From contig JAGBRL010000031.1 in the NCBI GenBank assembly GCA_017632345.1, forward strand, positions 1 through 64,000: a stretch of DNA of 64,000 bases. Direction: 5' to 3'. Each line of letters starts with the position of its first letter. Positions within the stretch are counted from its first letter, which is position 1. The DNA comes from Paludibacteraceae bacterium (GTDB taxonomy: Bacteria; Bacteroidota; Bacteroidia; Bacteroidales; Paludibacteraceae). A program made the translations under genes and the position numbers. Below the pieces are notes generated by a model. The model was not told the DNA's origin. It saw only the letters and a program-made list of their open reading frames with translations, and searched no databases. Of the stretch, positions 7,766 through 30,234 are shown one piece after another.

Positions 7766-7783
7766 AACAAACCACTTTCAATA

Positions 7784-8762: not shown

Positions 8763-8803
8763 AAAACAAAAAAACTCCCGCCGACTAAAATCAGCAGGAG
8801 TTT
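8763..8803 (-). terminator. Terminator of the tra/giant-protein operon
   Basis: Minus strand AAACTCCTGCTGA pairs with TCGGCGGGAGTTT around a short loop, followed by a T run. It lies 50 bases past the stop of the giant gene and marks the end of the long transcription unit. Confidence 0.85.
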
Positions 8804-8852: not shown

Positions 8853-11800
8853 TCAATCCAAATGTCGTTTAGCAATCTTAAACGCGCGACCGTTCACCAA
8901 CACTGTATAAGAGCCTTGACTCAAATCACTTAAATCAATCACCTTCCGGTTATGCCCTCTGCCAGTCTTTTGCACGCGTCCATTCGCATCAACCACAACA
9001 TACTCAAACTCTTTGCCATAGGCGTTTATAGTCAGACTTTGACTGAACAAAGTTGGATAAACCGCAATGTTCTTGAACTCGACCGAAGGGCCTTCCGCCT
9101 CGTCCACAAACTCAGCGACAACATCGCTGTCATACGACCTGAACACCTCTTGCGGTATGTACAGAGCCGAGCTTACAGCAGTATCTCTGCACCCCTGCGG
9201 GTTTGTAACAACCAAAGACACCTTGTAACGTTCCGCATTATAGAAGTAACACATCGGGTCTTCTACGTAAGACCTCAAACCTTGCGTAAATTCATCGCAA
9301 TACTGCGGATTGGCCGGCTGAATCAGTTCCCAATAAAGCACAGACGCATTCTTGGACTTGTTTTTGAACTGCACAAGAGCGCCTTGCTCAATTGCCACCT
9401 CCTCCTGCTCACAAGGATATTCAAGTCCGTTCACCTCAAACGAAAAGTCTGCCTCAAAATCCAAAACACCCACCTTAACCTCCCTGCGAGTCTCGACGCC
9501 GGTTGTTTTCGACACCCTCACCATAGTCACGACAAAAGGCTCCGTCACATTATGGAACTCTATCTCTTCTCGGAAAAGTTTGCCTTCATAAGGCCTCTTT
9601 CCATAGAACGTGTTTTCCGGATAGCCGTCACAACGATAATAGAACTCACCGGTGTAAGTATGTTCTGCATTGTCATAACATATTATTGATGCGTTTTTAC
9701 CTCTACACACCGCATGTTCAACAACCACATCAGCCTCCTTTATCATAGGGGTGTTCAACGTGACAACTTTAAAAGATTCAGAAACAGATGTTCCGCAACT
9801 ATTTTTTGCACTTATCCGGTAATACCTCAACGGCAACGTGTCGTTCAACTCTAACGAATGCACTTCCGAGTTCAAGTCTATTTTCGACACCAGATTATCC
9901 CACAGTTCTCCGTTTTCACTTACCTGCCAGAACAAATAAGACGCATATTTAACTGTATCAAAAAGAGTTACGGACATATCATTTGTCTTTTGAATCATAA
10001 AATCTCCGTGCAATAAACCTGAAGAATTCAGAAGCGCTGTATCTGCATCGGTATAGATATAGCCAACTTCCGGCAAACCTACAATCTCTACAGAAACCTC
10101 ATTGCTGACCATCTTATATTCGCCAGCGTAAGTTTCCCGTCTATACCAAGTCTTTGTTGATATAGGGTCCGGCGTATAAGTCTTTCCATTCGCTCCGTCG
10201 ATCTGAACATAATCTGACATTGTAAGATTTTCATTCTTGTAATACCACTTATAAGAGTATTCGCCATTACCGCCGGAAACATCGGACGCTTTGATGGCAG
10301 GCATTTCCGACCCGCTGCACACAAAGCCGTTTCCGTCAACAGAAATCACACCGCCCCTCAATGGTTCGACCTTGTAAGGAGTAACGCAGCTTTCTGCATT
10401 CTTCACTATATAGACTGTGCTGTCCAAAGCGTCTGCAGGAATAGAGCTAAGACCAAAAGGCAGAGGCTTTTCAAGTCCTTTACCTTTTATCATATAATCA
10501 ACAGAGGCATTGTCCGCCATAGTGGACACAGAATAGACAGCCTCAGAATCGGACTTAACCATCGTTGTTATTTCAAGTCCAAGTTCAGCCACATAATCCA
10601 CCATCACAGACTCTTGTCCCTCAATCTTAAGAATATTGCTGAACAAAGTGTCACATCCGTTCGTCATGCAGCGCTTCATCTGTTTAGTTCCGTCAGCAAC
10701 AACCGTAACACGCGGAGAAGTTCCGTTTGGCACAGCGTTCCATTCAACACCGTCCCTGGACTCAAACCACTGATATTTGACGTGCAAATCATCTGTCTCT
10801 GTCTCTAAATCATACTTTCCGAAAACATCAACAATAGAGCCGTTGCAAGGGAACAAACTCGTAGCCTCGACCACATTCCGTTCCGCCTCAATAGGACGAG
10901 CCGAATAGGCGCGCATAACACTCTGTTCAGACTCGCATACGTTCAGACCAGCACGCACAACAGTTTTCACATAAAAGTCTGAATAATCGCCATCAATACC
11001 GCCAAACGTTGCGAAAGAACGACCTTCCGACAAGCTGTCGGTCTCCGTACCATCCGCGCGACTTATCAAGACAGATACAGACTCAAACTCATCACCAAAC
11101 GCAGCTTCACAATCCGCCTTGACCGAATCCAGATCCTCCTTGTTCATCTTCATGCTGAAACGCTGTCCGACACACTTAAAGTCAGTCTTCTCAATCAATG
11201 CCAAATCAACGTTCAATTTAGGGTACACCCTCACAAAAACAGTCTCACTCGTGTCCGAATCACACATATCATCAACTATTCTGCGGAAATAAGCAGAAGT
11301 TTTGATATTGCTGACCTCAAGGTCCTTGGCAACACCGCAATCTTCAAACACAACCATATCATAGGACATCTGCCACAAATAACTCTTCTCTCCGCTTCCA
11401 CCTTCAGCCAAACCGCCCTCTATCTTCACATCACTGCCGTAACAAGCAGCCAAGTTTGCAGTCGCCATCGCTCCCTGAGAAAGTTCCGGCATAGAATCCA
11501 CGTTAAAGAACAACGAATCAGTCACACATCCGCTGTTAATGTCCACACCAACAACACCGTACTGAGTTGCCACAATGTCCGAAACTCGCCTTATAGCCAA
11601 AGAATCATTCAGACCGGTCCACACCGGATTAGAATCTTCGTCCAATATGAACCAATAATAATTAAACTCATCAAGGTTATCTACCTTAACTACAATAGAG
11701 TCAGAACTGCAATCTTTCTTGTTTTGATAAACAGAAGGATACTTCAGCCTCTTCCATATTGTCAGATTCAACGGCTCGCTATAAGCCAAACCGCACACAT

Positions 11801-14800
11801 CGCTATAAACCGCGCGCACAGCAACCTCATTATTTCTGTCAAAATCTATTTCCAACAAATTACCATAACGCAAGACATACTCAAGGTCAAGAGAATAGCC
11901 AAACTTGTTCAGTTCAGAAACCATCTTAAAATCACCGCCGTTCAACGCAATCTCCCATCCGCAAAGATAGTCGTTGCGACCTGTAAATTCTGCATAACCA
12001 CCCGTAGGCAACGAGCTAGACACTTTAGGCAGAACATCTTTGTGACAGAAAAGCGCTTTGTCTGACTCTAACGACAATTCCCCAGGAAGCACCTCTCCAT
12101 AACGATATAACGTCAAAGTATCAGAATAACAGACCCTGCCAGTCTCGTTAACTGCCGCCCTGCGAATAAAGCAAACTCTGCAACTAGGATTAACGACACC
12201 CTCTATTTTGTCGGCAGGCAACTCTTCCGGACTAACCGCACCATCTATGTCAGTCCATACGTTCTGCGCCTCGTCCATGCAGATTTGCCACTGATAAGAA
12301 AACACCCTCGCCTCTCCGCTATTAGGAGAAAAACGCCTGCCTTGAGCAAGACGGTAATTGCTCACCTTATCAAACTGCTCACCTGCGCAAACCGACTGAT
12401 TTCCGCTGATAATTCCGCCGTCACTCTTAGAGAAGAAAGACAATGGCACAGCCAAAGACGAAGACATACAGCCCACATTGTCAACACGTTTCAGATATAC
12501 AACCGAAGGAGTCTCCGCGCTAACCGAATCAAAAACAAGCGGGAAACCTATGTTCAATGTGTCGGTACATTCTTCATCTCGGAACCAGAACACATCATAA
12601 GGTTCGTTAGAAACATAATCGACATACATCTTATCCCCAAACTCAATGCCTTCTTTAAACTTTCGTCCCTCTGGCGAAATAGCTGATATATACACCTCTT
12701 CTATCTTAGCCTTTTTGTCGGACAAAGTTTGATTCACAAAATTTGAATAAGAGACAGAGCATCCGTCGCTAAACGCACGTCTCACTATATAGCTTGTGTC
12801 CATACCATCGGTGCCACCAACGGAGAATATCTGAGCGTAATCTATACGTCCGTAATAAACATCGCCCTTCTCCCACACAGTAGAGTCATTAATGGTGCGT
12901 CCCTTTGCAAACTCAAACCAAGTTTGGAACTCTTCAGTTTGCCTATCATACAGATAAGGCCCGAACTCCAAGTTTTTCCACAAAGAGTACAATTCAGAAT
13001 TCTGATCTACAACACCGCTGATCTTAGCACCTTTTTCTCCCGAACAATATATTTCCTGACTTTCCTGCAAAGAGCCTGCCATACTTACCGAATTAGCAAG
13101 CAACAATTTCTCTACCAGATTAAGTTTCGGAACAATATAAACTGATACCGTGTCCGAATAGATGCTCTGCTCCCGTTTTTCACCGTTCACTACCTGAGTG
13201 AAACTTGTGCGTCTGAAGAAAGAGACTTTCTTTTCCAGAACAGTCCTTGACACATCGTCATTAGCCAAGACCTTTGCCAGTTTGCAAGTGTCCAGATTAA
13301 CCGTAGCGCTCCTAACTTGCGAGCCGGACTTGCCCCATAAAATATTATCCGAAATCTCATCATCAACCTTGTACCACCAATCATAAGTCAAGTCCTCGCT
13401 GCCCTCGACAAACACTTGACCGGCCCCCTCTCCGCTACAAATCCAGAACACATCTTTCGACGCGTCAAACTTTTCAAACGTCAGGCTGCCACCATCAACA
13501 GAGAAGGTCTTAATCACAACAGTGTCATAGTTAGACGACAAGCACTTCAAATCATCCTTTGTCATAGTCTTCACAAAAAACAGCTCTTCCGCGCTCTTCA
13601 AAGATTCCGTAACATACTCTTCGTAAACCTCTGTTGTATCCTTAACTCTGCGCATCTTGTCATACCACACATAATCAAACCCTTCATGCAAGCCGTTCAT
13701 GTGCGAACTGCTACCACTGACAACCAACGGATTGCAAGTGACAAAATCAGGCTCGATAAGAAACTCATCTCTAACATTCACCACCTTGACCGCCGTTGTG
13801 TCGGAGATACAATCGTCATGCACAACCCTGCAAAAACGTGTCGTCTTGTACAAACGGTAAATCTCCTGCATTGAATTGCCCGTATATTTCACACTAGTCT
13901 GCTCTACAACCGGAGACCATTTGCTCCAGCCATCGCTCGTACGCTCCGACTTCAGCCACTCATAAGAGTAATTTCCTGAGCCGCCAGTAGCATCAGAACC
14001 ATCTATGAAAGAGAAATAACTGCCGTAGCAAACATCTACAGTCGCAACGTCTATTCGACCCGGATCAAGCAATGGATAAACCCTTTTTGTTACCGAATTA
14101 GACACATAGCTTCTGTCCGGATAATTGCCCACACTGCTGACTACCGCATAGAACTGGCACGTCTCTCTGATATAGTTCAACAGCAAATAAGCCAAACCGC
14201 CATCAGTCGCATTCTCCAAACGTTCCGTAACCTCAAAAGGCTGCGTCTCGTCTCCATCAACAACCTTTGCAAAAGATGACATTTTATCGCTCTTGTAGTA
14301 CCAATCTACAGAATACACTCCATCTCCGCCGGTTATATCCTCTAACATCAGATGGACACGGTCCTTATTCGTACAAACCACCTCGTCTCCAGACTTGTCA
14401 AACAACATTTTTGCAGATATTTTTTTGTAAACATCAAAATGGTAAACAATCGGTTCAGAAGAGCAGTCGCCTTTACCTTTAGTTGTAACATACACAAACA
14501 CAGAATCTCTGCCCTGCTTAAATTTGCCGTCCACCCAGACAGGATTGCCAACATTCCATGTTTTCAAAGATGGGTCTGCCGTCCAGCTATATACGTTTTT
14601 ATAATCACGAGGCACAGCAAGCATCACAGAATCCAGCGACTCCCCTTCGTAAACCGAGCTGCTAAGCAAAACAACATCCTCTGCCGACAAACTTGCACCT
14701 TCGTTAAACATCAGCTGAAGCAGGTTTTCCGAATAGACTTCAGTTCCGTTACACGGGTCAACAGCCCCAAGTCTGAAATATGTGTTCTCACTATAATTTT

Positions 14801-17800
14801 CCAAATCGACCACACACTCGCTCAATGTGCAACCCATTGTCAAACCAACAGCCTCAACTGGCTTCCACACATTGTCCAGCCCCATCTGATACCACTGCAA
14901 ACTAAGATTATTAGCAATGAGCGAATCCGCAGATAACCTAAACGTGCCGGTCTCACCCTTGCACTTGTACAAAGTTTTGACACGTTCAACCTCCTCGTCA
15001 AAAGAGACCGAACAAAGTTTCAGAGCTTCTTTACCATGAACTTCATAGACAGGGGACGAGACTGACATCGACTTGCCTCCATCCGGAAGATAAGTCAGCT
15101 TGCAAATATACATAACTTTAACACCCTCCTTAGCCTCAACAACCAACTCTGCAGCTTTACCTTTATTAGACCAGTTTACACCATCAAGGCTCTCATACCA
15201 CTGATGCACAAAATCCTCACTTCCAAGTTCATTGCCTCCAAAAGACGGATAGTCAGAAATGGACAGAGACACCTTTGTCCCGCCACAAACCACCGCTGGA
15301 GATATACTCTGCGAAACATCGGAACTCACCACGGGTACACCCTCAAAACCGTCGTTAAGATGAACGTAAACCGTAGAACGAGACTCACATTTTTCATTCT
15401 GCCCATAACGTTTCACATTTAAAGCCGCCACATTATAAAGGAACGACAACGAATCCAACTTAACTGTAAAGAACTCCCCGTTATACTCATACGACATTGG
15501 CGGCTGATTATTAATCGAGACCTCCAGCTTATCCTTGATTTTCAGATTTTTGCCCTCAACCCTAATATCTACATGAGAATTCTTTTCAAACTCTTCACGA
15601 ACGACAACCGACGGCAAAGCCTCCAAAGAGAAAGACAAGTCCGGCTCAACGTCAATGACTTTAGTCGCATACTTATTATAATTGTGACAATATCTGTCAA
15701 CAACATTAACACCTACTACATTTACTTCATCATCAAGATTTACAAAAGCATAGCTTTTTTCTTCCCCGTCTGCAACAACATCTGTTTCGCGGAGCCATTC
15801 ATACCTGAAATAACCAGACCCGCCATCCACGCCTAATACAGACAGAGTCGCGCCGCCACCAAAACAAACCGAATCATCACTCAGATTCAAAGAGATGTTC
15901 CCTATCATGTCATAAGTATCAAATTTGATAGTATCCGTCACACTTCGGCACTCGTCAGAAGTCACCCTCACTACCTCATAACTACCGCCTTTCTCTCTGA
16001 ACATCGAGCCATCAGACACAAGATTTCGCGTTTTATCGGCCAACGGAACACCGCCGTTTATCGTCCAAGTGTACAAGAAATCTCCGTCTTGAGCCAAATT
16101 TGCATCAGATATAGTAAACGGATTTCCTGCACAAATCATATCGTTCTTTGCCCCATCTGAATTTTCAACAAAAAGCCTGCCCTTCTCCAACGGACGAAGC
16201 ATATCCTCATTATTGAACTTAAAATCAGTCTCACCAACACAACCGTCTTTCTTTGTCAACACTTTAAACGAAACAGAACCGTCGAGCGGCAAGTCAATTT
16301 CGGCCAAAGCACCTTCAACCGTGTCGCCGTCAGCCAAGACAAAAGCATATTCGCGTCCCAGCTGCTTGTTAACACCGACATTCACAGTTTCACCTCTGAC
16401 CTTGCATTTATCAGACAACAAATCCTCCTGGGGCACTTTCAAATTCTCTCCCGCGACAATTTTCACAGGCTCTGTTGCGTAAACAGTATCATTACAACAC
16501 AATGCAAATGCATATACCACAGAGTCTTTATCAACAGAAAATTTCTTCACGCCTTTTCCGAACGGCGTATAAGAACCATCTTTATTTTCAAAACAATACT
16601 CAAAGCCAACCTTTAACCCTTGACTTTCAATATCCGAAGCATTCTTCAACAATACAGAACACTCTACCACGTCTCCGTAACAAATATCCAGATCACCTTT
16701 TTGACCATCCACCAAAAGATCAAAAGCCGGAACTGCATAAACAGCAAACGTGACCTCATTACTAACAGACTCCAGATAACCGGTCTCAGCCCCTCCAGGC
16801 ACATTAGACCTCACATACCGGCGCACCTTCACGTCCCTATCGACAGGTTTTATCCAAGCACCAGCCTCAAGATTTTCTGTGCGAATAATCTTCCCGTCAG
16901 CATCAGTCATACCGACCCACTCAGACCCGTTGAAATACTGCCAAATATAAGAGTATGAGCCTTCTCCATATCCGCCAATAACATGGTCGCCAAACAAAAA
17001 CTTGTTCAACTCGCCCTTGCAGACATACACCTTGTCGCCTTCCAGTCCGCCTCCTGCATAAATATTATTGTTCAGCATCCCTTTGATATAATTAACGCAA
17101 AGAAAAACAGGCTCGCTCACACAACCAGAAGAGACATTGACCTTCTCTATTTTCATATAATCGCAAGCTTCCTTATCATACCATGCGCTCGTTCTTATAT
17201 TGTTTGACACCTTATATCCAGAAACCGGGTTAATCAAAGAGCGAGCCGCCCATTCAAACTCTCCTTTGTCGTCAACATTATCACTCTTGACAGACAGGTA
17301 ATAACGGCTTTGGCTCTTCTCCTCATCTTCATTTCCAATTATAACGCTAAAGTTCTTATCTTCAGGCACTCTGACCTTAAGTCTATTCTCAAATTCGTCT
17401 GAGTTAGAGACACTGCCGCCTTCAACGTGAATAGCCTCCCTTTTTAATTCAGGATTACGATGAACCTTAATCAAGCTAGACAAATCGACAACAGTTCCGC
17501 AACCGTCCGTAACCGAGATTTTGGTGTTTACATCTGACTCTGATACCAAAACAAACGGCAAAGACAAGTTTGCTGTTACCTTCGAGCCATTGAACGCATC
17601 AAAATTAGAAGAATACGAATACAAGAACTCGCACGCCGCATTCTCTCCTTTGTAGCCGCAATAACGACCATCTTGCTTAGGCTCAAAATTAACATTAAGC
17701 ACAGAGTCTAGTTCACTGCCCGGACACATTGCAGGGAAATCTGAAACAGCAAAATCAGAAGAGCCTAACTTTTTGAAACATTTCACCATCACATAATTAT

Positions 17801-20086: not shown

Positions 20087-20089
20087 ATA

Positions 20090-20626
20090 CTATTTATGAA
20101 AATTATACCTCACACCAACACTAAACAAAGGCTTCAGATACTGGTCGTCATTGCCAAACAGCATATATTGCTGCGCCTTTATCAAGCAAGAGATTCGGCT
20201 AGACGGAAAGAACTCCAACGAATAACCGACATTAGCGCCGTAAACCATTCCGCTAACCTCTTCGTCCACAATATCACAACGCCAATTGTCGTAACCAACA
20301 GAAGCTCCGACGGAAAGATTCATATAGAACCAAACAGCCGGATTCCATACAGAATACACAACTCCGGGAGAAACAAGCACGACTCCAGAAAAGTCGGACA
20401 TGCCAAACTTAGCCCGCTCATAATCAGCCTCCAAAAGCAAAGCTGTTTTGGAATTAAAATAATACGAGTAGGTCAACCCCACATCATAATCACTTTTAGT
20501 GCCGATACCACCCCGCACACCAACGGCATGCACACCCTTCACATGAGTAAGTTCGGCAGATTGCGAATATACCGAGACAAAAAACGCAACAATAATAAGG
20601 CTTAACAACCTTCTAAAATTAAACAT
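20090..20626 (-). CDS. traO: Conjugal transfer protein TraO (outer membrane beta-barrel)
   Basis: Predicted outer membrane protein of the Bacteroidetes conjugation apparatus. The frame extends to 20767, but the ATG at 20626 (MFNFRRLLSLIIVAFFVSVYSQ) gives the signal peptide and fits the family length of about 180-190 residues. The mature part shows the TraO pattern: GVHAVGVRGGIG near the start, alternating strand segments (VGLTYSYYF, LLLEADYE, VVLVSPGVVYSV, YMNLSVGASVGYDNW) and the end LKPLFSVGVRYNFHK with a C-terminal-type strand. Unlike other junctions in the operon, there is a gap of about 200 bases from traN, in which no clear promoter was found. Confidence 0.82.
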   Translation of the reverse strand: MFNFRRLLSLIIVAFFVSVYSQSAELTHVKGVHAVGVRGGIGTKSDYDVGLTYSYYFNSKTALLLEADYERAKFGMSDFSGVVLVSPGVVYSVWNPAVWFYMNLSVGASVGYDNWRCDIVDEEVSGMVYGANVGYSLEFFPSSRISCLIKAQQYMLFGNDDQYLKPLFSVGVRYNFHK

Positions 20627-20829
20627 ATAAACTTTTAAATTTAAATTAATCAACAAAACAATTATAGGTTTTGAAAGAGCGCAGAGGTATAAAAATTCAG
20701 CATAAAACCAAGTCTCAAAAGCAACTTTTATTTTTAATAAAATAAGTTCCTCGATTTTAACCTTCACAACAAAAGCGACATATTATATACACCTGAGGCT
20801 CAACCAATTAACCACACATCACATTTCAC

Positions 20830-21948
20830 CTATCCGTCTTTCAGACGCCTCGCTTTTAACAGTTCTTTATTAGGAACTGTAAATTTAAGATGCCGACCTC
20901 CGTTTTTTTCAAAAATCTCAAAGTAAAGGCTGTGCTTGTCCGGTATGGTGAAACGTTTGAAAAAAAGCACAACAGACTTTTCCCGCTTTGCAGCAACCAC
21001 ATCAATCTCCGAACCATCCTCGTAGATAAAAAGCGGAACCTTTTCGTCTATCTGATACGCCTGAGCCTTTGCAGTCTTTTTATTGACTATATAACTTTTC
21101 AAGAAATCAACCTCATAGTCTATATGCGAATTATTCACAATAGAGAGGTGAAACATAAAAACATCATCTTCTACGAATATAGACCGCAACGAAAAAATCA
21201 TTTTATTGTCAATCACCCCATGATTCAGCATAGTGCCTTCGCTCACAACTTTCTCTCCAAGACGCCTCATGTCCATCTCGTTAACAGAAATTGAAGAGAA
21301 AACCGCATCTGGCACATCACCTCCTGACACTGTAAAATTCAAGTTTTCAGGATTTTCCGAATACTTCACTATAAAAGGATAGATCTGCTTATCCTCCGTT
21401 ATCACAAGCAAATTAGTCTCTCCAAAAAAATCGAATCCGACGGAAAGCGACTTGCATTTCACAATATTTTCGATATTCTCCACCTGCTCTGCAATGATAC
21501 TGTCACACCCCGCCTTCACATCCAGAATCTTACTTGGCAAAATAATATGAGACGTTCTTTTGTGAGACAACTCTATTTCCAACGGCAAAATTATATCCTT
21601 GTCTGCAATGTCCTGGTCAATTACATTGGCCGCTATAAACCTAGGGTTCTGGTTATAAGACAAAGAGAAAGTATAAACCTTTCCGTCGGTTGTTATTATA
21701 GTAATACTAGTCTCATCAAATACGGAGACCTCGCTTTTCACGCGCACCACTGAGTTCACGTTAGTCACCTCCACCGTTATCTCATCGGTACCCATATCTG
21801 CATAACTGACAGCAGCAGCGAACTTCAGATAAACCCACTTGACATCCGACACCTCCAACGGAATCTCCTTCACCTTAACAACATTTTGAGCAGAAGAAGT
21901 CTTGAAGCACAATAAACTCAGCAATAAAAAAAGACAGACACGAGCCAT
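20830..21948 (-). CDS. traN: Conjugative transfer protein TraN (DUF4138)
   Basis: Periplasmic or outer-membrane-associated subunit of Bacteroidetes T4SS, commonly compared with VirB9. A signal peptide (MARVCLFLLLSLLCFKTSSA) precedes a beta-rich protein with the family opening IPLEVSDVKWVYLKFAAAVSYADMG and the C-terminal KREKSVVLFFKRFTIPDKHSLYFEIFEK. At 372 residues it is slightly longer than typical. The ATG at 21948 shares one base with the traM stop (TGATG), a coupling junction; the frame also offers a GTG at 21951. Confidence 0.88.
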   Translation of the reverse strand: MARVCLFLLLSLLCFKTSSAQNVVKVKEIPLEVSDVKWVYLKFAAAVSYADMGTDEITVEVTNVNSVVRVKSEVSVFDETSITIITTDGKVYTFSLSYNQNPRFIAANVIDQDIADKDIILPLEIELSHKRTSHIILPSKILDVKAGCDSIIAEQVENIENIVKCKSLSVGFDFFGETNLLVITEDKQIYPFIVKYSENPENLNFTVSGGDVPDAVFSSISVNEMDMRRLGEKVVSEGTMLNHGVIDNKMIFSLRSIFVEDDVFMFHLSIVNNSHIDYEVDFLKSYIVNKKTAKAQAYQIDEKVPLFIYEDGSEIDVVAAKREKSVVLFFKRFTIPDKHSLYFEIFEKNGGRHLKFTVPNKELLKARRLKDG

Positions 21949-23090
21949 CACTTTGTCATTTTTATAATTAGTTTATAATTGGCCGGGAGCGTAACTTTAG
22001 TTTCCTTGATAGCTCCGCCCACCACGCTTTTTGTCGCATCCACAAGCGCATTTGCACTTTTGTCCAAGAGACCACGCAGTCCGCCTGTATTAACCTCCAC
22101 GCCTCTGACAGTTCTTTCACCTCCTTCCTTGCCTGCATCATTCACAAGATTGTCCGGTATATAAATACCCTTAAAACCATCTCTGTCATAAATGCAGCCT
22201 TTAAAAGGATACACATTGTCCTTGTATGCAATGTTCTCAATCGTAACAAACACTCTATTTTCAGAAAATGAGGCCTTGCCTATTATCATCGTGTTCGGAG
22301 GAATTACAGAGCCTGCCACCTCTATCTGATCCAGAATCCGCAGTTTCACCTGTGACGACGATGTTATGTTCTTCTGTTCTCCATGCACAACAGCCCGAAT
22401 ACTGCCAGCCTCCAAACTACCTCCCTTTTCGCCTAAAGATTTAAAACCATTCTTTTTATTAGTTTGAGCTATAACTTCAGGAACTACCTGCTCATTCGGA
22501 ACCGCAGCCGCGTCATTGGATTTGCTCGCTTCATTCTCTGCCGGAACACCATAACGCTCCAATATAGATGCCTTTTTACGCTCTATCTCTTCCGCCTTTC
22601 TTTGCCTAAGTTTCTCCAAACGCTCAGCTCGGCTCTGACTTTTCTCTACTTTTTTCACCTTAGTCCGTTCTGCAACGACCACATCCGAAGAAGATGTTTT
22701 TGGAGCTTCCACATCTTCAAAATCAGCCAACGACTTCTTTTGACGCACACCCGTCTCATTTACATCCGCCGAAACGTCGCCATTGTCTCTTTCCCCGGCT
22801 GCAATAGACCCGAGCAGATCAAACGAATTATTTTGCATCTTACGTCTGCTACGCTCCTCTTCCAGTCTGTTCTGTTCTGAAATAATAGCCTTCAACTTGC
22901 TATTTTCAAAACTATTGTTTTCAGGTTCCGGGATATTCATATTAAAACCTTCCGATACAGCAACTTCATGTTTTTCTTCCGTATCACCTAAATCCAATAT
23001 GAAAAATATAGCAATCGCCGTTAACGACACAAAAACACTGCCAACATGCAAAAGCATCTGCTGTTTACCTATTTTCAAATTACTTCTCAT
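21948..23090 (-). CDS. traM: Conjugative transposon protein TraM
   Basis: Inner-membrane-anchored T4SS scaffold subunit, commonly compared with VirB10. One transmembrane helix near the N-terminus (MLLHVGSVFVSLTAIAIFFI) is followed by a charged, coiled linker (ERLEKLRQRKAEEIERKKAS) and a C-terminal beta domain with SSQVKLRILDQIEVAGSVIPPNTMIIG and DRDGFKGIYIPDN, the characteristic TraM core. The ATG at 23090 overlaps the traL stop by 11 bp and is preferred over the earlier frame start at 23117. About 380 residues, near the family length. Confidence 0.9.
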   Translation of the reverse strand: MRSNLKIGKQQMLLHVGSVFVSLTAIAIFFILDLGDTEEKHEVAVSEGFNMNIPEPENNSFENSKLKAIISEQNRLEEERSRRKMQNNSFDLLGSIAAGERDNGDVSADVNETGVRQKKSLADFEDVEAPKTSSSDVVVAERTKVKKVEKSQSRAERLEKLRQRKAEEIERKKASILERYGVPAENEASKSNDAAAVPNEQVVPEVIAQTNKKNGFKSLGEKGGSLEAGSIRAVVHGEQKNITSSSQVKLRILDQIEVAGSVIPPNTMIIGKASFSENRVFVTIENIAYKDNVYPFKGCIYDRDGFKGIYIPDNLVNDAGKEGGERTVRGVEVNTGGLRGLLDKSANALVDATKSVVGGAIKETKVTLPANYKLIIKMTK

Positions 23091-23439
23091 ACGCCAAACT
23101 ATCTTTTTCAGCCTCAACCTTCAGAAGCTCCTTCAAACCTTTCTCTATCCGTTCAGGAACCTCTTTTTGAGGCACAGTCAAATCAATTTTCATAATATCC
23201 AGAGAATCTGCCGGAACAGTTTTTTCCGGGACCGTCCTATCCGTCCCAGCCCCGCTCTCATCAAAATCAGCCAATGCAAAAATCAATTTAAGCAAAACAG
23301 CAAGCAACAGCGCCACAAAAATCAGCTTAAAATAAAACTTGCGTCTTTCTACAGGAAGAGAGTTCAACTTTTCCTCTGCTCTTTTTCCCACTTCTGTTTT
23401 TTTACTTTCATAATATGTTTTAAAATTCTGACTATCCAT
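23080..23439 (-). CDS. traL: TraL-like conjugation protein
   Basis: 119 residues with one transmembrane helix (FKLIFVALLLAVLLKLIFAL at about 37-57) after a charged cytoplasmic start, and a short periplasmic tail. Sequence alone is weakly diagnostic; the call rests on size, topology and its place between traK and traM, where TraL is found in Bacteroides conjugative transposons. It starts 4 bp after the second traK and overlaps traM. Confidence 0.7.
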   Translation of the reverse strand: MDSQNFKTYYESKKTEVGKRAEEKLNSLPVERRKFYFKLIFVALLLAVLLKLIFALADFDESGAGTDRTVPEKTVPADSLDIMKIDLTVPQKEVPERIEKGLKELLKVEAEKDSLAYEK

Positions 23440-23443
23440 AAAT

Positions 23444-24052
23444 TCACCTTTTTACAATACCCAACAAACTATCATCCTCGATTTTCCAATTTACAATTTT
23501 AAAACCGTTAGGATTACACACATCCCTATCGCACGAAACCAGCCCGCACGTTGTTTTCAGATTTCTGAAAATCACTTTGTCTCCGTACACCAACGATGTT
23601 TTCCCGTACATCGTTGCATAAAACTCACAGTCATTACCCTCAGACAAACAGACGCTGTCGCACTGAAACTCTGACGACACACCGTTTGCGATCATAGAAT
23701 TAAAGTACCCCTTTTCAGAAAGCAAGCCATATTGATTCTTAACTGTATTGTCCGAAACATACAGAGCCTTTTCCATCTGTCTTTTCATAAAATCCGCATC
23801 AGGCGAAAGTATAAAAAACAACTCATGAAAACGCCTAACCTGCATTTCCGCCTCCGCTTTTCTGTTCGTCTGCACATCATTGGCCAATGCAAGCAACAGA
23901 GTGTTCTGAGAGCCAGCCACATATACAAAATTCCTCTCTTCCTCCGCAAAAACAAAAGCCAATTTCACGCAAAGCAATGAAATCGCGGTGGCAATCACCG
24001 TTGTCACAACAAACACCATCTTCACATTCGCAAAAATTTTCAACACATCCAT
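23444..24052 (-). CDS. traK: TraK-family conjugation protein, second copy
   Basis: T4SS inner-membrane protein with one N-terminal helix and a periplasmic domain, possibly VirB8-like. It carries the family core RKAEAEMQVRRFHELFFILSPD and the cysteine-containing segments CDSVC, YGK, FRNLKTTC and PNGFKIVNWKI. It follows another full-length traK paralogue (24055-24675) by 2 bp; the two share this core and the C-terminal pattern but differ elsewhere, so this is an old duplication rather than a recent copy. Both have intact frames, which suggests both are used. The product has 202 residues, normal for TraK. Confidence 0.85.
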   Translation of the reverse strand: MDVLKIFANVKMVFVVTTVIATAISLLCVKLAFVFAEEERNFVYVAGSQNTLLLALANDVQTNRKAEAEMQVRRFHELFFILSPDADFMKRQMEKALYVSDNTVKNQYGLLSEKGYFNSMIANGVSSEFQCDSVCLSEGNDCEFYATMYGKTSLVYGDKVIFRNLKTTCGLVSCDRDVCNPNGFKIVNWKIEDDSLLGIVKR

Positions 24053-24054
24053 TG

Positions 24055-24675
24055 TCAGTACAATTTATCAATTAACAGATCTCCGTTGTCTATAATTTCC
24101 AAATTCTCTATCATAAAGCCATGAGGAGTTGCCTCTGACCGTGCGCAATTACGTATATTGCACTGCGTCACCAGATTTCTGAACGTAGAGCCAGATGTTC
24201 TTTCAATCTCCATTTTCCCGTACATGACAGCCTTGTAAGGATACTTTGACACATCAACACAAACACTGTCACACTTATACAGGCAGTATATTTTAGCCTC
24301 CTCAAGCTGCCGGTAAAATCCACTGTCCATCAAGCTCTTATACAAATCATAAGCCGAAATGTCTGCCATTTCTAACGCCTTCTGCACCTTATGTCCGATT
24401 ATGCTCTTGTCCGGATAAAGATTGAAAAACAACTCATGGAAACGCTCCACATTAGCCTTCGCCTCCGCCATTCTGTTGTCAGTTGTGCTTTGATTAAAGA
24501 TGAAGTTCAACGGCTCCTCTCCCTGCAACGCATAAATTTTCCTTTTCTGCTCTTCTTTAAACTGCCACGAGCAGAAAAAGGCGAAACAAAGCACAAGAAA
24601 CTGCGAGCCCAACGTCAAAATCATAAATGTCCTGACATGAGAAAAAGCGCTCTGTATATTAATCAAACTTCTCAT
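24055..24675 (-). CDS. traK: TraK-family conjugation protein, first copy
   Basis: 206 residues, one N-terminal transmembrane helix (FMILTLGSQFLVLCFAFFCSW), then RMAEAKANVERFHELFFNLYPDKSIIGHKVQKALEMAD, the most recognisable TraK motif. The C-terminal half has CDSVC, KAVMYGKMEIERTSGSTFRNL, a CNIRNC pair and PHGFMIENLEI. The ATG overlaps the traJ stop by 4 bp. The family normally occurs once per conjugation operon; here a second member follows immediately, so the complex may contain a hetero-oligomer. Confidence 0.88.
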   Translation of the reverse strand: MRSLINIQSAFSHVRTFMILTLGSQFLVLCFAFFCSWQFKEEQKRKIYALQGEEPLNFIFNQSTTDNRMAEAKANVERFHELFFNLYPDKSIIGHKVQKALEMADISAYDLYKSLMDSGFYRQLEEAKIYCLYKCDSVCVDVSKYPYKAVMYGKMEIERTSGSTFRNLVTQCNIRNCARSEATPHGFMIENLEIIDNGDLLIDKLY

Positions 24676-25721
24676 CGTCCTCCAAATGTCTTTTGCACAG
24701 AGCCAAACGCGCCCTTCGCGCCTTTCAGCGCAGCTCCGCTCACATCCATCATATTGCCCATCATATTGCTTGACTTTGTCAAAGCCATAGACACATTAGA
24801 GCCGCCGGCCCCCGTCAACGTACCGCTACTATAAGTCATAGCCCCAACAACATACCCAGCAATGGACGGAATGCTCATATACCCAAACGCCGCCGCCAAA
24901 GAAAGAAACACGAGCATAGAGCTGCTCTGAGGTGCCGCAATCTCGTCCGTTCCAGCCGTCATTGCACCCAGATATTGCGAGAACAAGGACATTATCGCAT
25001 ACGTCACCAGATTCACACAAGGCAGATAGAGACTTGCCGTAACATACTTGCTCACCCAATTAGACAGAGAGTTTGAAAAGCTTGGTATCAAAGACAAAGC
25101 AAAAGCAAAAGGACCTATGTAGAACAATATCATCTTCGTGAAGTTTCCGATTGCCAGCACCCCCGCTCCGCAAATTGTCCCGGCCATAGTCAGAACTGAT
25201 ATGAAAAAGGAAGAAAGACCTGCCTCGCATTTATTTTTCAAATCAGCAAAGAAACCGACCATAAAGTCAGCGCTTGACTTAAACAAGTTGCCCATGTAGC
25301 TCGCCAGTCCCTCGTCTTCTGCAGACTGCATTCCAGCCTTTCCTCCTTTATCGTCCGAAAGCTTTATGCTAAAAAAGACCTCCTTCATCTGACTGTCGCA
25401 AGAGTTCTGTTTGCTCTGCAACATCTGCTCTGTAGGCAAGTTGACAATATTCATGACTGCGTCTATAAAGCTCACAAACACAGAAAAGTTCATAATCACA
25501 AGTCCTATGCAAAACGGCCTCAGTGTTGCGTAAAAATCAATCGGCTTCCCCTGACACCAGCTTTTCCATATCATGTTACCTATGTAAAACAATGCGAATA
25601 TCGCGCACAAAGACGAGGCTATCACAGAGACATCGCCTATATCAGTCTTGCTAGCCTCGTATATGCCCTGCAAATTGTCTGAAAAGACCTTCAGATTTAT
25701 TGGCTCCACATCAAAAAACAT
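24672..25721 (-). CDS. traJ: Conjugative transposon protein TraJ (VirB6-like)
   Basis: Polytopic inner membrane protein of the T4SS. Hydrophobic segments include VIASSLCAIFALFYIGNMIW, FCIGLVIMNFSVFVSFIDAV, SVLTMAGTICGAGVLAIGNF, ILFYIGPFAFALSLIPSF, NLVTYAIMSLF and MLVFLSLAAAFGYMSIPSIA, with the conserved PFAFALSLIPSFSNSLSNWVSKYV typical of TraJ. The tail is glycine, serine and alanine rich. 349 residues, near the family length. It starts 6 bp after the traI-like gene. Confidence 0.9.
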   Translation of the reverse strand: MFFDVEPINLKVFSDNLQGIYEASKTDIGDVSVIASSLCAIFALFYIGNMIWKSWCQGKPIDFYATLRPFCIGLVIMNFSVFVSFIDAVMNIVNLPTEQMLQSKQNSCDSQMKEVFFSIKLSDDKGGKAGMQSAEDEGLASYMGNLFKSSADFMVGFFADLKNKCEAGLSSFFISVLTMAGTICGAGVLAIGNFTKMILFYIGPFAFALSLIPSFSNSLSNWVSKYVTASLYLPCVNLVTYAIMSLFSQYLGAMTAGTDEIAAPQSSSMLVFLSLAAAFGYMSIPSIAGYVVGAMTYSSGTLTGAGGSNVSMALTKSSNMMGNMMDVSGAALKGAKGAFGSVQKTFGGR

Positions 25722-25727
25722 ACGCGC

Positions 25728-26405
25728 TTATTTTAAGAAGTTTGAAATCATCTGGTTCGTTGACAAATACGGTCCGCTTTGGTTTCTCGCCCCCATACTG
25801 TAAATATTCAGATAAGGCTCACACATCTCCTTCTTTCTGTCTATCACATCCTGAGCATCACCCTTCACCAGCTGCATTTTAGTTTTGCACGCCGCCATCT
25901 GAGAACGTATTCGGTTAAGCAAATCCAACCTCTCCGCAGAAGAAAGCCCCGCATCGTCTTCCGACTTAAAATCAGACACATACAGCTTCGCCTCCTCTAT
26001 CAAGTCCATCGCATCAGAATAGATGCCGAACCCTTTTAAATAAAGAGACAGCCGTTCGCCCTCGTTAAGCCAGTCTGTCTGTGTCAGTTGGTTGCGAAAT
26101 TCGTTAAGGTCGTTCGCCATATCCTCTGCGGCCTGAACAATCACAACAAAGTCCTTTGCTCGTTTCACCCAATTCATGGCGGTCTTAAACTTCTCTGCAT
26201 TTTTCTTAAAATCCTCCGCCTGCATGACCATTTGCTCTATTTGCTCATACATCACATACTTTTCCTCCACAGCCTCTGCCATCTGATCCACGAAATTCAT
26301 CGCGCGCTGAGCGAACGACGTCGGGTCTGTCACCACCATAGCTCCCTGCGAATACAGAGGAGACGCACCGCACAAAAGCAGTGCCAATAAAACAATATTT
26401 TTCAT
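25728..26405 (-). CDS. traI: TraI-like conjugation protein (DUF4141)
   Basis: Secreted, helical periplasmic protein; DUF4141 members sit between traG and traJ in Bacteroides conjugative elements, commonly compared with VirB5. A signal peptide (MKNIVLLALLLCGASPLYSQ) precedes the family start AMVVTDPTSFAQRAMNF, then long helices (MYEQIEQMVMQAEDFKKNAEK). 225 residues. The ATG overlaps the stop of the traG C-terminal fragment by 4 bp. The name follows Bacteroides usage and is unrelated to the F-plasmid relaxase TraI. Confidence 0.85.
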   Translation of the reverse strand: MKNIVLLALLLCGASPLYSQGAMVVTDPTSFAQRAMNFVDQMAEAVEEKYVMYEQIEQMVMQAEDFKKNAEKFKTAMNWVKRAKDFVVIVQAAEDMANDLNEFRNQLTQTDWLNEGERLSLYLKGFGIYSDAMDLIEEAKLYVSDFKSEDDAGLSSAERLDLLNRIRSQMAACKTKMQLVKGDAQDVIDRKKEMCEPYLNIYSMGARNQSGPYLSTNQMISNFLK

Positions 26406-26677
26406 AAGTTTCCTGTTTTTTTATAATGAACTTCTATATACTTTTCGATACCTTTCTGCATAGAGCCAAGTTCGTCCGCATAGGCCATAACGATGCCCTT
26501 TTCCTCCTTTGTTGTAGAAAAAGCCAAGTATTCAGCTGGCGAGACCTCCACACCGTAAACGGAAGAGAATGCTGAGTTAAAAGAGATGAACACCTCCTTG
26601 TACCTGCCTCTATTCTCGATATTCAGATTTCTGTTTATAGACAGCACCAAAGCCTTCTCCTTCTCTGACAATGCCAA
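26402..26677 (-). CDS. traG: C-terminal fragment of TraG (VirB4-like), separated by an in-frame TAA
   Basis: Frame from a TTG, reading MALSEKEKALVLSINRN and ending after a TraG-like tail (RYKEVFISFNSAFSS, YGVEVSPAEYLAFST). This is the C-terminal segment that normally completes Bacteroidetes TraG proteins (LTDKEK...SINLN, then EVSPEEYL in homologues I remember). It is in the same reading frame as the upstream 743-residue part: after the TAA at 26692-26690 the frame reads IQETLALSEKEK without interruption. An AGGAG sequence lies upstream of TTG codons, so re-initiation is possible. On its own it has no recognisable active site. Confidence 0.8.
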   Translation of the reverse strand: MALSEKEKALVLSINRNLNIENRGRYKEVFISFNSAFSSVYGVEVSPAEYLAFSTTKEEKGIVMAYADELGSMQKGIEKYIEVHYKKTGNL

Positions 26678-26689
26678 AGTCTCCTGAAT

Positions 26690-28921
26690 TTATACAAATC
26701 GATTCATAAATTTAGACTGGTCCAGAAGTATTTTCTCGTCTGCATTATTTATAATCGCATCCTTCACAATCTCGTTGCCAATTATGTCTCCGACCTCTTG
26801 CGTCACCACCGCCACCTCTCCATTATGCTTTCTCACCGTTTTGTAGAGATATTTGATAAACTCTGCGGTCCCCGACTTAGAGATTGCCTTCCAAGCCTCC
26901 TCTATGAGAATCACTTTACGTTCATGAGGGGCAAGCCTGCGCATTTTTGTGATGAACGTGTCCATCAGCACAATTGTGACTATTGGAAAGAGAACTTTAT
27001 GATCTTTTATGTTATCTAATTCAAAAACGATAAACCGTTTATGAAGAAGGTCCAAATTAGCCTCGCTGTTTAGAAGATAATCGTACTTGCCTCCCTTGTA
27101 ATACGGCGACAAGACCTGCAAAAGATTCTCCAAATCGAAGTTCTCAATCCTTATTCCCTCTTGCGAAACCCTGTCTTTGAAACAAGTCCTCATGAAATCA
27201 TAAAATCCGTTGAACGACGGAAACTCGCCTCTGTTTTCGCATAAATGCTTAACATACAAATTCAGTGCGATTTCAATCTGAGTCTCTTCCGACTTTGAAA
27301 TATCCTCATGCTCATTCTTCCACAAGACACAGATCAAAGAAAGCAGCTGCACCATCTTCTCTTCTGTGTAAACATAATCCTCCACGAAAAAAGGATTGAA
27401 AGAGATTGGCTCGTCCTCTTTGTACGTGTAATAAATACCGTCAGCTCCACCTGTCCGTTCGTTAATCAGCCTGCACAGACCTTGGTAAGAGTCTCCGACA
27501 TCAACAATCACAAGATGTTCTCCCTGATCATATTTCTGAGAAACCATGACATTTGTAAAGAAAGACTTGCCCGACCCCGAAGGCCCCAAAATGAACTTGT
27601 TCTTTGCAGAAGCCCAACCTCGCTTCACCGGCTCGTCCGACACGTCAACCCTAACCGGAATGCCAGACAGACGGTCTGTCAGCTTCAGACCTTGACTCTT
27701 CTCGCCTGTTATGTCCGAATAGTTCGTCTCCATATTGAAAAGACAGACTCCTTGCGATATAAACGACAAAAACCTCATCTCGTCTGGATAATTTGACGCC
27801 GCTCCCGGAATTGCGGCCCAAAAGAGGTGCGGAACAATGACCTCCGTTTTCGAAACATTACAATCCATCGCGGAAAGGCTACCTCCTACCACCGAGTTTT
27901 TTTGAAGCAACGACACATAACTTTCGTCCCATAGCATTACGTTAAACGCACAATGGACACTCCGCTCTTTCCGCACTTGAGCTTCGTTCAAATACTCGTC
28001 GTTGAACATTTTGTTCACAAGATTCTCTCTTGAAACGGCAGACAAAGACTCCATTCGCTTGCCTTGTCTCTCCAACTCGTTCAATGTTTCCGCAGAATCT
28101 CCTATGAATATAAACTGATTGTAAATATGGTCAAAAGGCAGTTTTAGCGCTACCGGAAAGGCCATGCAATTAGACAACACAGACACGTCTGTCGAATAGC
28201 TTTCGTTGCGGCAACTAGAACTGAGGACATTCGGCAAATCTGTAAGTTCGCCAATAGAAAAACAAGAGACATACTTGTCGCCAATCATCAAATCCTTCTC
28301 TTCCACATGCAAATCTGCCAAAACCTCGTCCCTGCCTGTGAAATTCAGCGAAAGATATTTCTCTATAAGCCCAAATCTGCCATTCTCAGCCCCAACAACC
28401 TCGTCAAGTTCCAACTCCCGGCAACCTAATCCGCCCGACTTCAATATAGACACAAACTGATTCACCGAGTCGTTAAAATCATCTAGCCTCGACTTGTCCG
28501 TTGCTTCTGCCGGCACAAAACGGTTCTTCAGAATTGCATTCATTGAAGATGTTTTTCGAAAACCGCTTTTCACACTAAGTGTCACATACAAATAGCACCG
28601 ATGCCTCAGACATCGCCTTCCACAAAAATGCTCCGAACTCGCCTTTTGCAAAAAGCCCTCCCATTTAGGTTCGTCGCAGCAGACATCCTCAAAGAACACA
28701 TCCTGCTTATGCACAATGGAGTAATTTGGAAGAACTCGCGCAGCCCGGCACCATACAGAATGCAACGCATCAAGTTCCGAATCTGAATTTGTAAAGACAG
28801 GACTCAGCTCCAGTTCAAAAACGCGAGTCACATCTCCCGACTTGGAAATCAAAGCTCCATTCTCGTAAGCCAGCAGCGGAAAGCATTTTCTTATATCACC
28901 AGATCTCACATTGAAATTCAT
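26690..28921 (-). CDS. traG: TraG conjugation ATPase (VirB4-like), N-terminal 743 residues, ends at an in-frame stop
   Basis: ATPase that energises T4SS assembly at the inner membrane. The ATG at 28921 overlaps the traF stop by 4 bp and gives the family start (KCFPLLAYENGALISKSGDV). Walker A GPSGSGKSFF lies near residue 447 and Walker B KVILIEEAWKAI near 670, followed by TVRKHNGEVAVVTQEVGD. It stops at ILLDQSKFMNRFV, whereas relatives continue with IQ...L.DKEK; here those residues follow directly after one TAA codon. With the downstream piece the product would be about 839 residues, the normal size. Nonsense mutation, readthrough, re-initiation or a base-call error are all possible. Confidence 0.9.
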   Translation of the reverse strand: MNFNVRSGDIRKCFPLLAYENGALISKSGDVTRVFELELSPVFTNSDSELDALHSVWCRAARVLPNYSIVHKQDVFFEDVCCDEPKWEGFLQKASSEHFCGRRCLRHRCYLYVTLSVKSGFRKTSSMNAILKNRFVPAEATDKSRLDDFNDSVNQFVSILKSGGLGCRELELDEVVGAENGRFGLIEKYLSLNFTGRDEVLADLHVEEKDLMIGDKYVSCFSIGELTDLPNVLSSSCRNESYSTDVSVLSNCMAFPVALKLPFDHIYNQFIFIGDSAETLNELERQGKRMESLSAVSRENLVNKMFNDEYLNEAQVRKERSVHCAFNVMLWDESYVSLLQKNSVVGGSLSAMDCNVSKTEVIVPHLFWAAIPGAASNYPDEMRFLSFISQGVCLFNMETNYSDITGEKSQGLKLTDRLSGIPVRVDVSDEPVKRGWASAKNKFILGPSGSGKSFFTNVMVSQKYDQGEHLVIVDVGDSYQGLCRLINERTGGADGIYYTYKEDEPISFNPFFVEDYVYTEEKMVQLLSLICVLWKNEHEDISKSEETQIEIALNLYVKHLCENRGEFPSFNGFYDFMRTCFKDRVSQEGIRIENFDLENLLQVLSPYYKGGKYDYLLNSEANLDLLHKRFIVFELDNIKDHKVLFPIVTIVLMDTFITKMRRLAPHERKVILIEEAWKAISKSGTAEFIKYLYKTVRKHNGEVAVVTQEVGDIIGNEIVKDAIINNADEKILLDQSKFMNRFV

Positions 28922-29226
28922 ACCTGACCTACCGACATTAAGTTTCTGACTCGCCTTATCATAATCCGTTCCGGACAAGACCGCATGGCAAAACTCTTAG
29001 ACATGCCGCACACACCGTACTTTGCATTCAGATAATAGCACAAAAAATAGTCCGCCACAGCCACAAGCGCAGCCACCGTCACTGCTATAAACTGGCTAAT
29101 AAAAGCCAGCACAAAATAGATTGCCACAGCCACAACTATGCCCGCCGCAAAATATAAGATAAACTGCTCTTTCAAGCCGTAGAAATCAAGCGGACGCCCA
29201 ACTCCCTTATTCACAACGTAATCCAT
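28918..29226 (-). CDS. traF: TraF conjugation protein (DUF4133, VirB3-like)
   Basis: 102-residue inner membrane protein with two helices (QFILYFAAGIVVAVAIYFVL and IAVTVAALVAVADYFLCYYL). It shows the family start YVVNKGVGRPLDFYGLKEQF and the C-terminal NAKYGVCGMSK...RIMIRR pattern of DUF4133. Stop and traG start overlap by 4 bp. It is 50 bp downstream of traE. Confidence 0.9.
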   Translation of the reverse strand: MDYVVNKGVGRPLDFYGLKEQFILYFAAGIVVAVAIYFVLAFISQFIAVTVAALVAVADYFLCYYLNAKYGVCGMSKSFAMRSCPERIMIRRVRNLMSVGQV

Positions 29227-29276
29227 AGAAACCTCCTCTGAAGATGCTCCTTAAAAAGAAGCACCCTCCTAAATAA

Positions 29277-29600
29277 TCACACGTTGAAAAAACTTTTAAC
29301 CAAAGTGATGACAACCACAGCAAAGACCAACGAGCCAATCCAGCTGCCTGCGGTCTTTGTCGTGTCCGGATCGCCAGACGACCATTTAGAATAAACCTTG
29401 AAAGCGCCGACCAAAGCCATTATGGCACAAACAACATAAAACAAATCACAAGCCACAGCAAAATAGCTCTTCACCTCATTTGTAGCTCCGGTTAAAGCCG
29501 CTGTCCGGCTTGACGTTGAAGACTGGGCAAACATCAAACCTGATGAAAACGCAACTGAAATCACAGTCGTCAACCCTCTTTTAAAGACATTTTTTTTCAT
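29277..29600 (-). CDS. traE: TraE conjugation protein (DUF4134, VirB2-like)
   Basis: 107 residues: a signal-like helix (LTTVISVAFSSGLMFAQ), then two hydrophobic segments (LFYVVCAIMALVGAFKVYSKW and WIGSLVFAVVVITLVKSFF) separated by SSGDPDTTKTAGSW. The GAFKVYxKWxxGDPD motif is diagnostic of DUF4134. Its size and topology match a pilin-like subunit. It is the first recognisable tra gene, with 283 non-coding bases before it. Confidence 0.92.
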   Translation of the reverse strand: MKKNVFKRGLTTVISVAFSSGLMFAQSSTSSRTAALTGATNEVKSYFAVACDLFYVVCAIMALVGAFKVYSKWSSGDPDTTKTAGSWIGSLVFAVVVITLVKSFFNV

Positions 29601-29883
29601 AAATTTTTATTTAAAAACAAATCATATTCCGACTGCCACAAAGCAGCACATAAGCTCATTTGCCACCCAAACACATAAGGCAATATCTACAAATCACGTC
29701 CCGCAGTTTACATATTCTGAAATTTGTCACGGACACTTTTGAGCACATCCCGTCTATTTACACTAAGACTTACTCAGTCACGAAGTCCGCATCACATCTT
29801 CTCAAAGACATGACCAATCTAAACAAAATATTTTTCTAAATCGGCTCGACCTAATTTGCAGAAGCAGCCTCGCGGGAATTGCA
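29601..29883. other. Non-coding spacer inside the tra operon, 283 bases
   Basis: Separates the small first gene from traE. No open frame, strong hairpin or exact TANNTTTG box was found on the minus strand; only short imperfect inverted repeats. It could be a leader or hold a second weak promoter. Confidence 0.4.
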
Positions 29884-30081
29884 CTAAGGAGAAACAGGAA
29901 CATCGAGTTCTTCAGCCTGCCGGCCTGAAGCTTGCACTGGCTCCGCCTCCCTCTTTTTACGTCTGTCATTTTTAGAAACGGAAGGCTCGTTTTTCACAAA
30001 AAACCTGAAAAACAAAAACACAACAACGTTAAACATAACAAAAGCCGTAAACACAACTAACAAAAAAAATTCCACCTTCAT
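29884..30081 (-). CDS. Small membrane protein heading the tra operon, unknown
   Basis: From the ATG at 30081 it encodes 65 residues: MKVEFFLLVVFTAFVMFNVV and onward forms one long hydrophobic helix, followed by a charged tail (KNDRRKKREAEPVQASGRQA). A GTG at 30120 would add 13 residues. It lies about 120 bases after a good promoter (30205-30234) and is the first gene of the unit. No family recognised; a small regulatory or assembly subunit is only a guess. Confidence 0.55.
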   Translation of the reverse strand: MKVEFFLLVVFTAFVMFNVVVFLFFRFFVKNEPSVSKNDRRKKREAEPVQASGRQAEELDVPVSP

Positions 30082-30204
30082 AAAACGATAGTTTTTTTTA
30101 ACACTCTGGATTACCGGCACTCACATCTTGTCTCTAAGCCGCAACCCTTTTTACCGTGACCGTCTTGCCATTTTGAAAACGTAATACAACAAAACTTCAC
30201 GACG

Positions 30205-30234
30205 CAAAGTTAGGCAAAATACTTAAACTACAAA
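30205..30234 (-). promoter_or_regulatory. Promoter of the tra/giant-protein operon
   Basis: Minus strand TTTG (30234-30231), an 18-base gap, then TAACTTTG (30212-30205), a close match to the Bacteroidetes -33/-7 consensus. Start of transcription would be near 30200. Confidence 0.6.

Follow-up and report, generated by a model that had tools for sequence, protein, structure and literature searches.

The conjugation apparatus of Bacteroidetes conjugative transposons of the CTnDOT type is a type IV secretion system (T4SS) of mating-pair formation class B (MPF_B), encoded by a region that extends from TraE to TraQ. A broad count of 2011 treated T4SSs that lack a relaxase as possible exporters of protein (PMC3158045), and protein-exporting T4SSs (pT4SSs) have been described only for the MPF_I and MPF_T classes (PMC4793230, 2016). 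The bacteria-killing T4SS of the Xanthomonas type is likewise chromosomal and relaxase-free (PMC6536674), and in Vibrio fischeri the lipoprotein TasL acts as a contact adhesin for killing by the type VI secretion system (T6SS) (PMC9040878). Here we describe a relaxase-free operon of the MPF_B type in a Paludibacteraceae bacterium, which continues into genes for a lipoprotein and for a giant surface protein with a tail resembling the sorting signals of the type IX secretion system (T9SS). It lies in a window of 64,000 nucleotides (the whole stretch of DNA analysed: positions 1 to 64,000 of contig JAGBRL010000031.1, assembly GCA_017632345.1), that is, in contig C38 of a draft genome of 2.82 Mb in 112 contigs, 99.66% complete.

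The locus shares with the CTnDOT-type region its protein families and the gene order E-F-G-I-J-K-L-M-N-O, but it is devoid of a relaxase, a coupling protein, TraA-C, TraP/Q and an integrase, has two copies of traK, and includes in addition the lipoprotein and the giant protein. With the relaxase-less ("MOBless") T4SSs and pT4SSs (PMC3158045, PMC4793230) it has in common the chromosomal position and a VirB4 protein without a relaxase, and it differs from them in belonging to MPF_B. The resemblance to the Xanthomonas-type system (PMC6536674) extends, in the related lineage g27, to a VirD4-like protein and to toxin-like genes that each follow a small partner gene; however, homology is limited to the T4SS core, and the genome studied here has neither coupling protein nor toxins. 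The parallel with TasL, another large surface protein tied to a contact-dependent weapon and proposed as a specificity factor, would be one of role, and here a T9SS-type giant and a separate lipoprotein are linked to a T4SS. As with SprB/SprF and other giant T9SS adhesins, a giant protein with Ig-like repeats is encoded beside an outer-membrane barrel, but here the barrel is TraO (PF10626), the tail is type-A-like and the genes are linked to tra. Relaxase-less T4SSs were already known; the pairing of a T4SS with a T9SS giant appears to be new, and we found no description of it in the open-access literature, in agreement with the preliminary description of this DNA.

A compact operon and the absence of mobility genes

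The genes traE-F-G-I-J-K-K-L-M-N-O, of the Bacteroidetes conjugation type, and the lipoprotein and giant genes that follow them occupy positions 8853-29600 of the minus strand. From traE (29600) to the giant gene (8853) the open reading frames (ORFs) are separated by short gaps or joined by 4-bp overlaps (giant/lipoprotein, N/M, K1/J, I/G and G/F), and the lipoprotein lies 3 bp from traO. The densely packed gene train of the preliminary description is thereby borne out by the coordinates, with the exception of traO, whose probable start at 20629 leaves a gap of about 200 bp after traN. Its gene list can now be supplied with identities from Pfam and NCBIfam searches and has to be amended in two respects, as it overlooked an in-frame TAA in traG and a 65-aa ORF upstream of traE. 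The combination of a TraG/VirB4 of the TIGR03783 family with TraE, F, J, K, M, N and O is that of an MPF_B T4SS, with TraG interrupted by a stop and TraJ scoring below its curated cut-off. We regard this draft-assembled locus as chromosomal because it is flanked by core genes, namely the parA-parB operon and valS, both anticipated previously and recognized by their Pfam families.

That the locus has no mobility genes had also been claimed, and whole-genome searches uphold it: no match to the relaxase family PF03432 was found across the genome, and no coupling protein (VirD4/T4CP) was detected genome-wide either with PF02534 or with the coupling protein of genome G027 as a query. PF01076 matched no genome, controls included, and is uninformative on the relaxase. 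There is no tRNA gene within the window, no direct repeat or shared word of at least 16 bp between the two flanks, and no integrase or att site at the borders with parAB and valS (no whole-genome integrase search was made). The genome thus possesses a T4SS without a relaxase, as expected of a pT4SS, and neither the VirD4 coupling protein nor the effector/immunity pairs that mark the Xanthomonas-type systems were found in it. The only other available genome of the same genus, G001, contains a broken coupling-protein fragment (contig C13; L100:9476-9802).

Conservation of the surface module in relatives

The lipoprotein (19124..20086, minus strand), with a PKD-like C-terminus (PF00801, 0.002), belongs to a family whose alignments reveal a conserved lipobox, S-C-[DE]-[TS]-R-x-D, and a C-terminal motif, HxFQxxGxHxVxxRxKDxxGLWSxW; its AlphaFold model, built from a single sequence, had a predicted local confidence (pLDDT) of 33 and was set aside. 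Of 200 genomes surveyed in the same taxonomic family, 42 encode the lipoprotein. A divergent TraG, which in the locus studied here is 45-47% identical to the TraG of plasmids and of classic integrative and conjugative elements (ICEs), is present in 36, and 35 of these also have the lipoprotein, the sole exception being a genome that is 81% complete; none of the 12 genomes with only the classic ICE-type TraG has it. Fisher's test gives p = 7e-31 by genome, the genomes being non-independent, and p = 9e-5 by genus (both proteins in 5 genera, TraG alone in 0, lipoprotein alone in 2, neither in 26). In 18 of the 35 genomes the two genes lie at most 30 kb apart on one contig, for which chance would account in about 2% of cases each. 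The order traO-lipoprotein-giant recurs in G061, G027, G097, G126, G077, G136, G151, G114, G143, G182, G174, G178, G122 and G108, and the module is found in at least five genera. In G174 the order traO-lipoprotein-giant-TraD-like-traE-N is fully contiguous, and in G143 the module lies upstream of traF-G-I-J-K-L-M-N. Co-occurrence and synteny together rule out a chance adjacency of the lipoprotein and giant genes to tra genes; the preliminary description had envisaged such an accident in one genome, and the order is conserved in several genera.

Beyond the family, searches of 393 genomes of the order and 395 of the phylum gave only weak, partial matches to the lipoprotein, and none was found on plasmids. 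A scan of viral contigs found nothing, and a scan of genome contigs with TraK returned one named relative only, Candidatus Scybalocola fimicaballi. In G186 (L103:13149-14580) the tra operon ends in traN-lipoprotein-traO, with no giant adjoining.

The giant protein (8853..19127, minus strand; 3,424 aa) has Ig/PKD-like repeats and a T9SS type-A-like C-terminal tail, which scores 3.9e-5 against PF18962 and 6.6e-4 against TIGR04183, in both cases under the curated cut-offs. Its homologues, of 3,350-3,800 aa, can be aligned almost from end to end, with 24-36% identity, and those of G182 (37.2 bits), G174 (32.8) and G105 (28.0) pass the PF18962 cut-off of 27 bits. The T9SS protein SprA is encoded in the genome studied here (G000:C80, 2,555 bits). 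Between G027 and G114 the identity of the giants rises smoothly from 24% at the N-terminus to 96-100% at the C-terminus, and between G027 and G136 from about 30% to 84%, while other genes are 80-94% identical and the coupling proteins 94%. To judge from the alignments, such a gradient is the pattern of a putative surface-anchored recognition protein, although part of the C-terminal identity may reflect recent recombination, because a neighbouring cassette is 98% identical. In the comparison of G027 with G114 (L021-L022 versus L072) the lipoprotein is divergent too (55%), and traO is 88% identical.

Two lineages carry the system without a relaxase. Genus g7 has one conserved, core-flanked locus composed of traE-O, a surface protein of 1,263-1,343 aa and the lipoprotein, in that order; no relaxase was found in 10 of the 11 genomes searched and no coupling protein in any. 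In g27, where the relaxase is absent from 8 of the 10 genomes searched, there is a traE-N operon, with the traO-lipoprotein-giant module often elsewhere. Six of the searched g27 genomes (G027, G097, G114, G136, G151 and G174) encode an orphan VirD4-like coupling protein of about 900-980 aa, located among core genes in a conserved neighbourhood wherever this was read (G027, G097 and G151; L056:8002-10938, L057:8626-11301 and L058:8614-11289). A two-gene cassette, coding for proteins of 180 aa and about 490 aa, recurs in g27 next to the tra operon and also next to the module (L021:12109-14144, L022:6778-8828, L037:3804-5811, L046:2607-4662, L072:360-4032 and L084:16866-18837). The N-terminus of the larger protein matches RhsA, a solved Rhs toxin-type chain (PDB 6xtd, 1.7e-8), which makes these cassettes candidate toxin and immunity genes. 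In the relaxase-free lineages the ratio of nonsynonymous to synonymous substitution rates (dN/dS) is 0.03-0.14 for the tra genes and the coupling protein and 0.04-0.26 for traO, the lipoprotein and the giant. Values this low mean that strong purifying selection acts on the g7 and g27 forms, which are maintained systems and not relics.

Other relatives are mobile. In G061 (g5) and in the g19 genomes the divergent TraG is accompanied by a relaxase and a coupling protein, and in three g19 genomes (G019, G108 and G122) also by an integrase, after traM; these three carry the module no more than about 30 kb away from the relaxase, the coupling protein, ParA, traE-M and the integrase. Because of this proximity in g19, the module probably came from an ICE family. 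In the TraG tree the protein of the window groups with those of G027 and G097, its nearest neighbours in the tree being G061 and one of the copies of G122. The relaxase-free sets fall into more than one clade, and therefore mobility was lost, or gained, more than once; deep joins are uncertain owing to long branches. The g19 module is also found in the order traN-traO-lipoprotein-giant downstream of the T6SS genes TssD-VgrG-DUF4280 (L023, L077, L078, L079 and L082), the T6SS genes being confirmed in G019 and G091, and several such genomes have no TraG. Of the two possibilities raised in the preliminary description, a system kept by the chromosome or an old element, each is true in part: the former suits g7 and g27 with their purifying selection, and the latter agrees with the ICE origin suggested by g19. 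A locus with relaxase and integrase in relatives, which was to count against a kept system, does occur in g19. On one contig of G122 (C68; L051-L052) two distinct divergent T4SS operons lie less than 20 kb apart.

A proposed contact-dependent system and its rivals

We give about an even chance to the proposal that the locus encodes a chromosomal, contact-dependent, relaxase-free MPF_B T4SS coupled to the TraO barrel, the lipoprotein and a hypervariable adhesin displayed by the T9SS. The products of traE-N would form an envelope-spanning channel and a pilus; the giant would leave the cell through the T9SS and stay attached to the surface by its C-terminus, close to the lipoprotein and TraO or together with them, and its distal, hypervariable N-terminal part would grip neighbouring cells and so provide the contact that the T4SS requires. 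In g27, the orphan VirD4-like coupling protein and the toxin-like gene pairs suggest that what is delivered are probably antibacterial proteins injected into the neighbour, and g27 is the only lineage in which antibacterial secretion finds support. A contact adhesin for contact-dependent weapons is suggested by the variability of the giant, the g27 cassettes, the T6SS neighbours in g19 and SprA taken together. More tentatively, and with some doubt, we consider that these loci may constitute a new branch of contact-dependent, chromosomal T4SSs of Bacteroidota with more than one origin from ICEs, in which the giant, the lipoprotein and TraO would pick the target and the orphan coupling protein would deliver toxins, the two secretion systems then acting as a single weapon. 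A relaxase-free MPF_B system that is conserved and under selection would bring Bacteroidota, a dominant gut phylum, into the range of the protein-exporting T4SSs, and its regular association with a T9SS giant and a lipoprotein suggests a way for a T4SS to select the cell that it targets. In addition, the locus and its relatives provide cases of an ICE apparatus that can be compared directly with its domesticated counterpart.

Several observations weigh against this proposal. The toxin-like cassettes were found neither in this genome nor in g7, and both also lack the coupling protein that bacteria-killing T4SSs use. The T9SS tail of the giant falls just short of the curated cut-offs. In g27 the tra operon often sits on a contig other than that of the module. 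The module may be independent of the T4SS, since it is present without a detected TraG in G036, G071, G091, G133, G156 and G178 and also follows T6SS genes in g19. Finally, traG of the genome studied here (26402..28921, minus strand), a VirB4-like ATPase, is interrupted by an in-frame TAA (26690-26692) within the P-loop domain, about 90 codons short of its natural end. The parts on either side are in the same frame and both match the TraG P-loop family (TIGR03783, 3.7e-248, before the stop; PF19044, 3.7e-19, after it), relatives have sense codons at this place in an intact traG, no other TraG match in the genomes of the family has an internal stop, and the family-wide TraG search detected no second TraG in this genome. 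Because of this stop, the gene copy may be broken and the T4SS half of the system inactive in this genome, or the assembly may be in error. We consider a reassigned stop codon unlikely, because under table 11 the ORF of the giant, 10.3 kb long, and those of the other genes terminate normally.

That some genomes have the module but no detected T4SS ATPase indicates that the giant, the lipoprotein and the barrel are a separable unit. It could be argued further that the module is a general adhesin without need of the T4SS, recruited independently by T4SS, ICE and T6SS loci, with adjacency reflecting shared regulation or a shared contact function. The module occurs with traN and no TraG in G071, G091 and G156, adjoins TssD-VgrG-DUF4280 genes in G019, G091 and G108, is separate from tra in several g27 genomes and retains an intact giant here despite the interrupted traG, but its presence in all but one of the genomes with the divergent TraG, its absence alongside classic ICE T4SSs and the constant inclusion of traO, and often traN, which are outer-membrane parts of a T4SS, make this explanation rather unlikely in our opinion. 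Slightly less probable still is a chromosomal apparatus for DNA uptake or exchange of cellular DNA, comparable to archaeal Ced or to ComB of Helicobacter, in which the giant would hold the cells together. It would account for the lack of both coupling protein and relaxase in g7 and in this genome, and the relaxase-free Ced/Ted systems are domesticated DNA-importing T4SSs (PMC9905601); the surroundings of the loci, however, yielded no competence genes, and the toxin-like cassettes of g27 and its coupling protein, retained among core genes, are in better accord with protein export. We find it harder to believe that the locus is an ICE remnant, deprived of relaxase, coupling protein and integrase and now decaying. 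The in-frame stop, the coupling-protein fragment of G001 and the sister relationship of TraG to those of G061 and G122, which are accompanied by a relaxase and a coupling protein in ICE-like loci, agree with decay, but the remaining ORFs are intact, including that of the giant, the relaxase-free relatives combine dN/dS well under 1 with conserved chromosomal positions, and the flanks lack the direct repeat mentioned above.

Individual genes and flanks

The remaining genes, all on the minus strand, begin with a TraD-like small gene upstream of traE (29884..30081), too small for the ORF list, which encodes the 65-aa membrane protein mentioned above. Aligned with relatives, it corresponds to the N-terminus of tra-adjacent proteins of 183-211 aa in G027, G097 and G174 (FLxFRFxxxxxxxVSKNExRKxRE) and to versions of 62-66 aa in g7. 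It is followed by traE, coding for a VirB2-like pilin (29277..29600; PF13572, 2.4e-25), and the VirB3-like traF (28918..29226; PF13571, 3.9e-19). Beyond traG, the traI-like gene (25728..26405), in the VirB5/TrbJ position, has a weak match to TIGR02780 (0.0013) and homologues at the same position in relatives, and the traL-like gene (23080..23439) has no family match and aligns over short stretches with G027 and G097; in the absence of a strong family match both were placed by position and by their tra-operon homologues. Between them lie the VirB6-like traJ (24672..25721; TIGR03782, 4.6e-32, the match under its curated cut-off) and two copies of the VirB8-like traK (24055..24675, TIGR03781, 4.3e-53; 23444..24052, TIGR03781, 1.7e-45), a duplication shared with G027, G097, G061, G174 and Ca. 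Scybalocola (L017). The VirB10-like traM (21948..23117; TIGR03779, 1.8e-44; PF12508, 1.8e-34) probably starts at about 23090, and is followed by the VirB9-like traN (20830..21951; TIGR03780, 1e-61; PF13595, 1.7e-64) and by traO, the outer-membrane beta-barrel (20090..20629; PF10626, 3.2e-10), with its start inferred from the signal peptide.

A promoter-like TAnnTTTG motif is present near 30205, where a promoter (30205-30234) had been suggested, and the terminator placed earlier at 8763-8803 corresponds to a terminator-like element after the giant gene, with a 15-bp stem and then a T-rich tail with a T-run (8804-8771 on the minus strand). Outside the system, the parA-parB operon (6863..8557, minus strand; PF13614 and PF17762/PF02195) lies downstream and valS (30445..33069, plus strand; PF00133, 9.6e-128) upstream.

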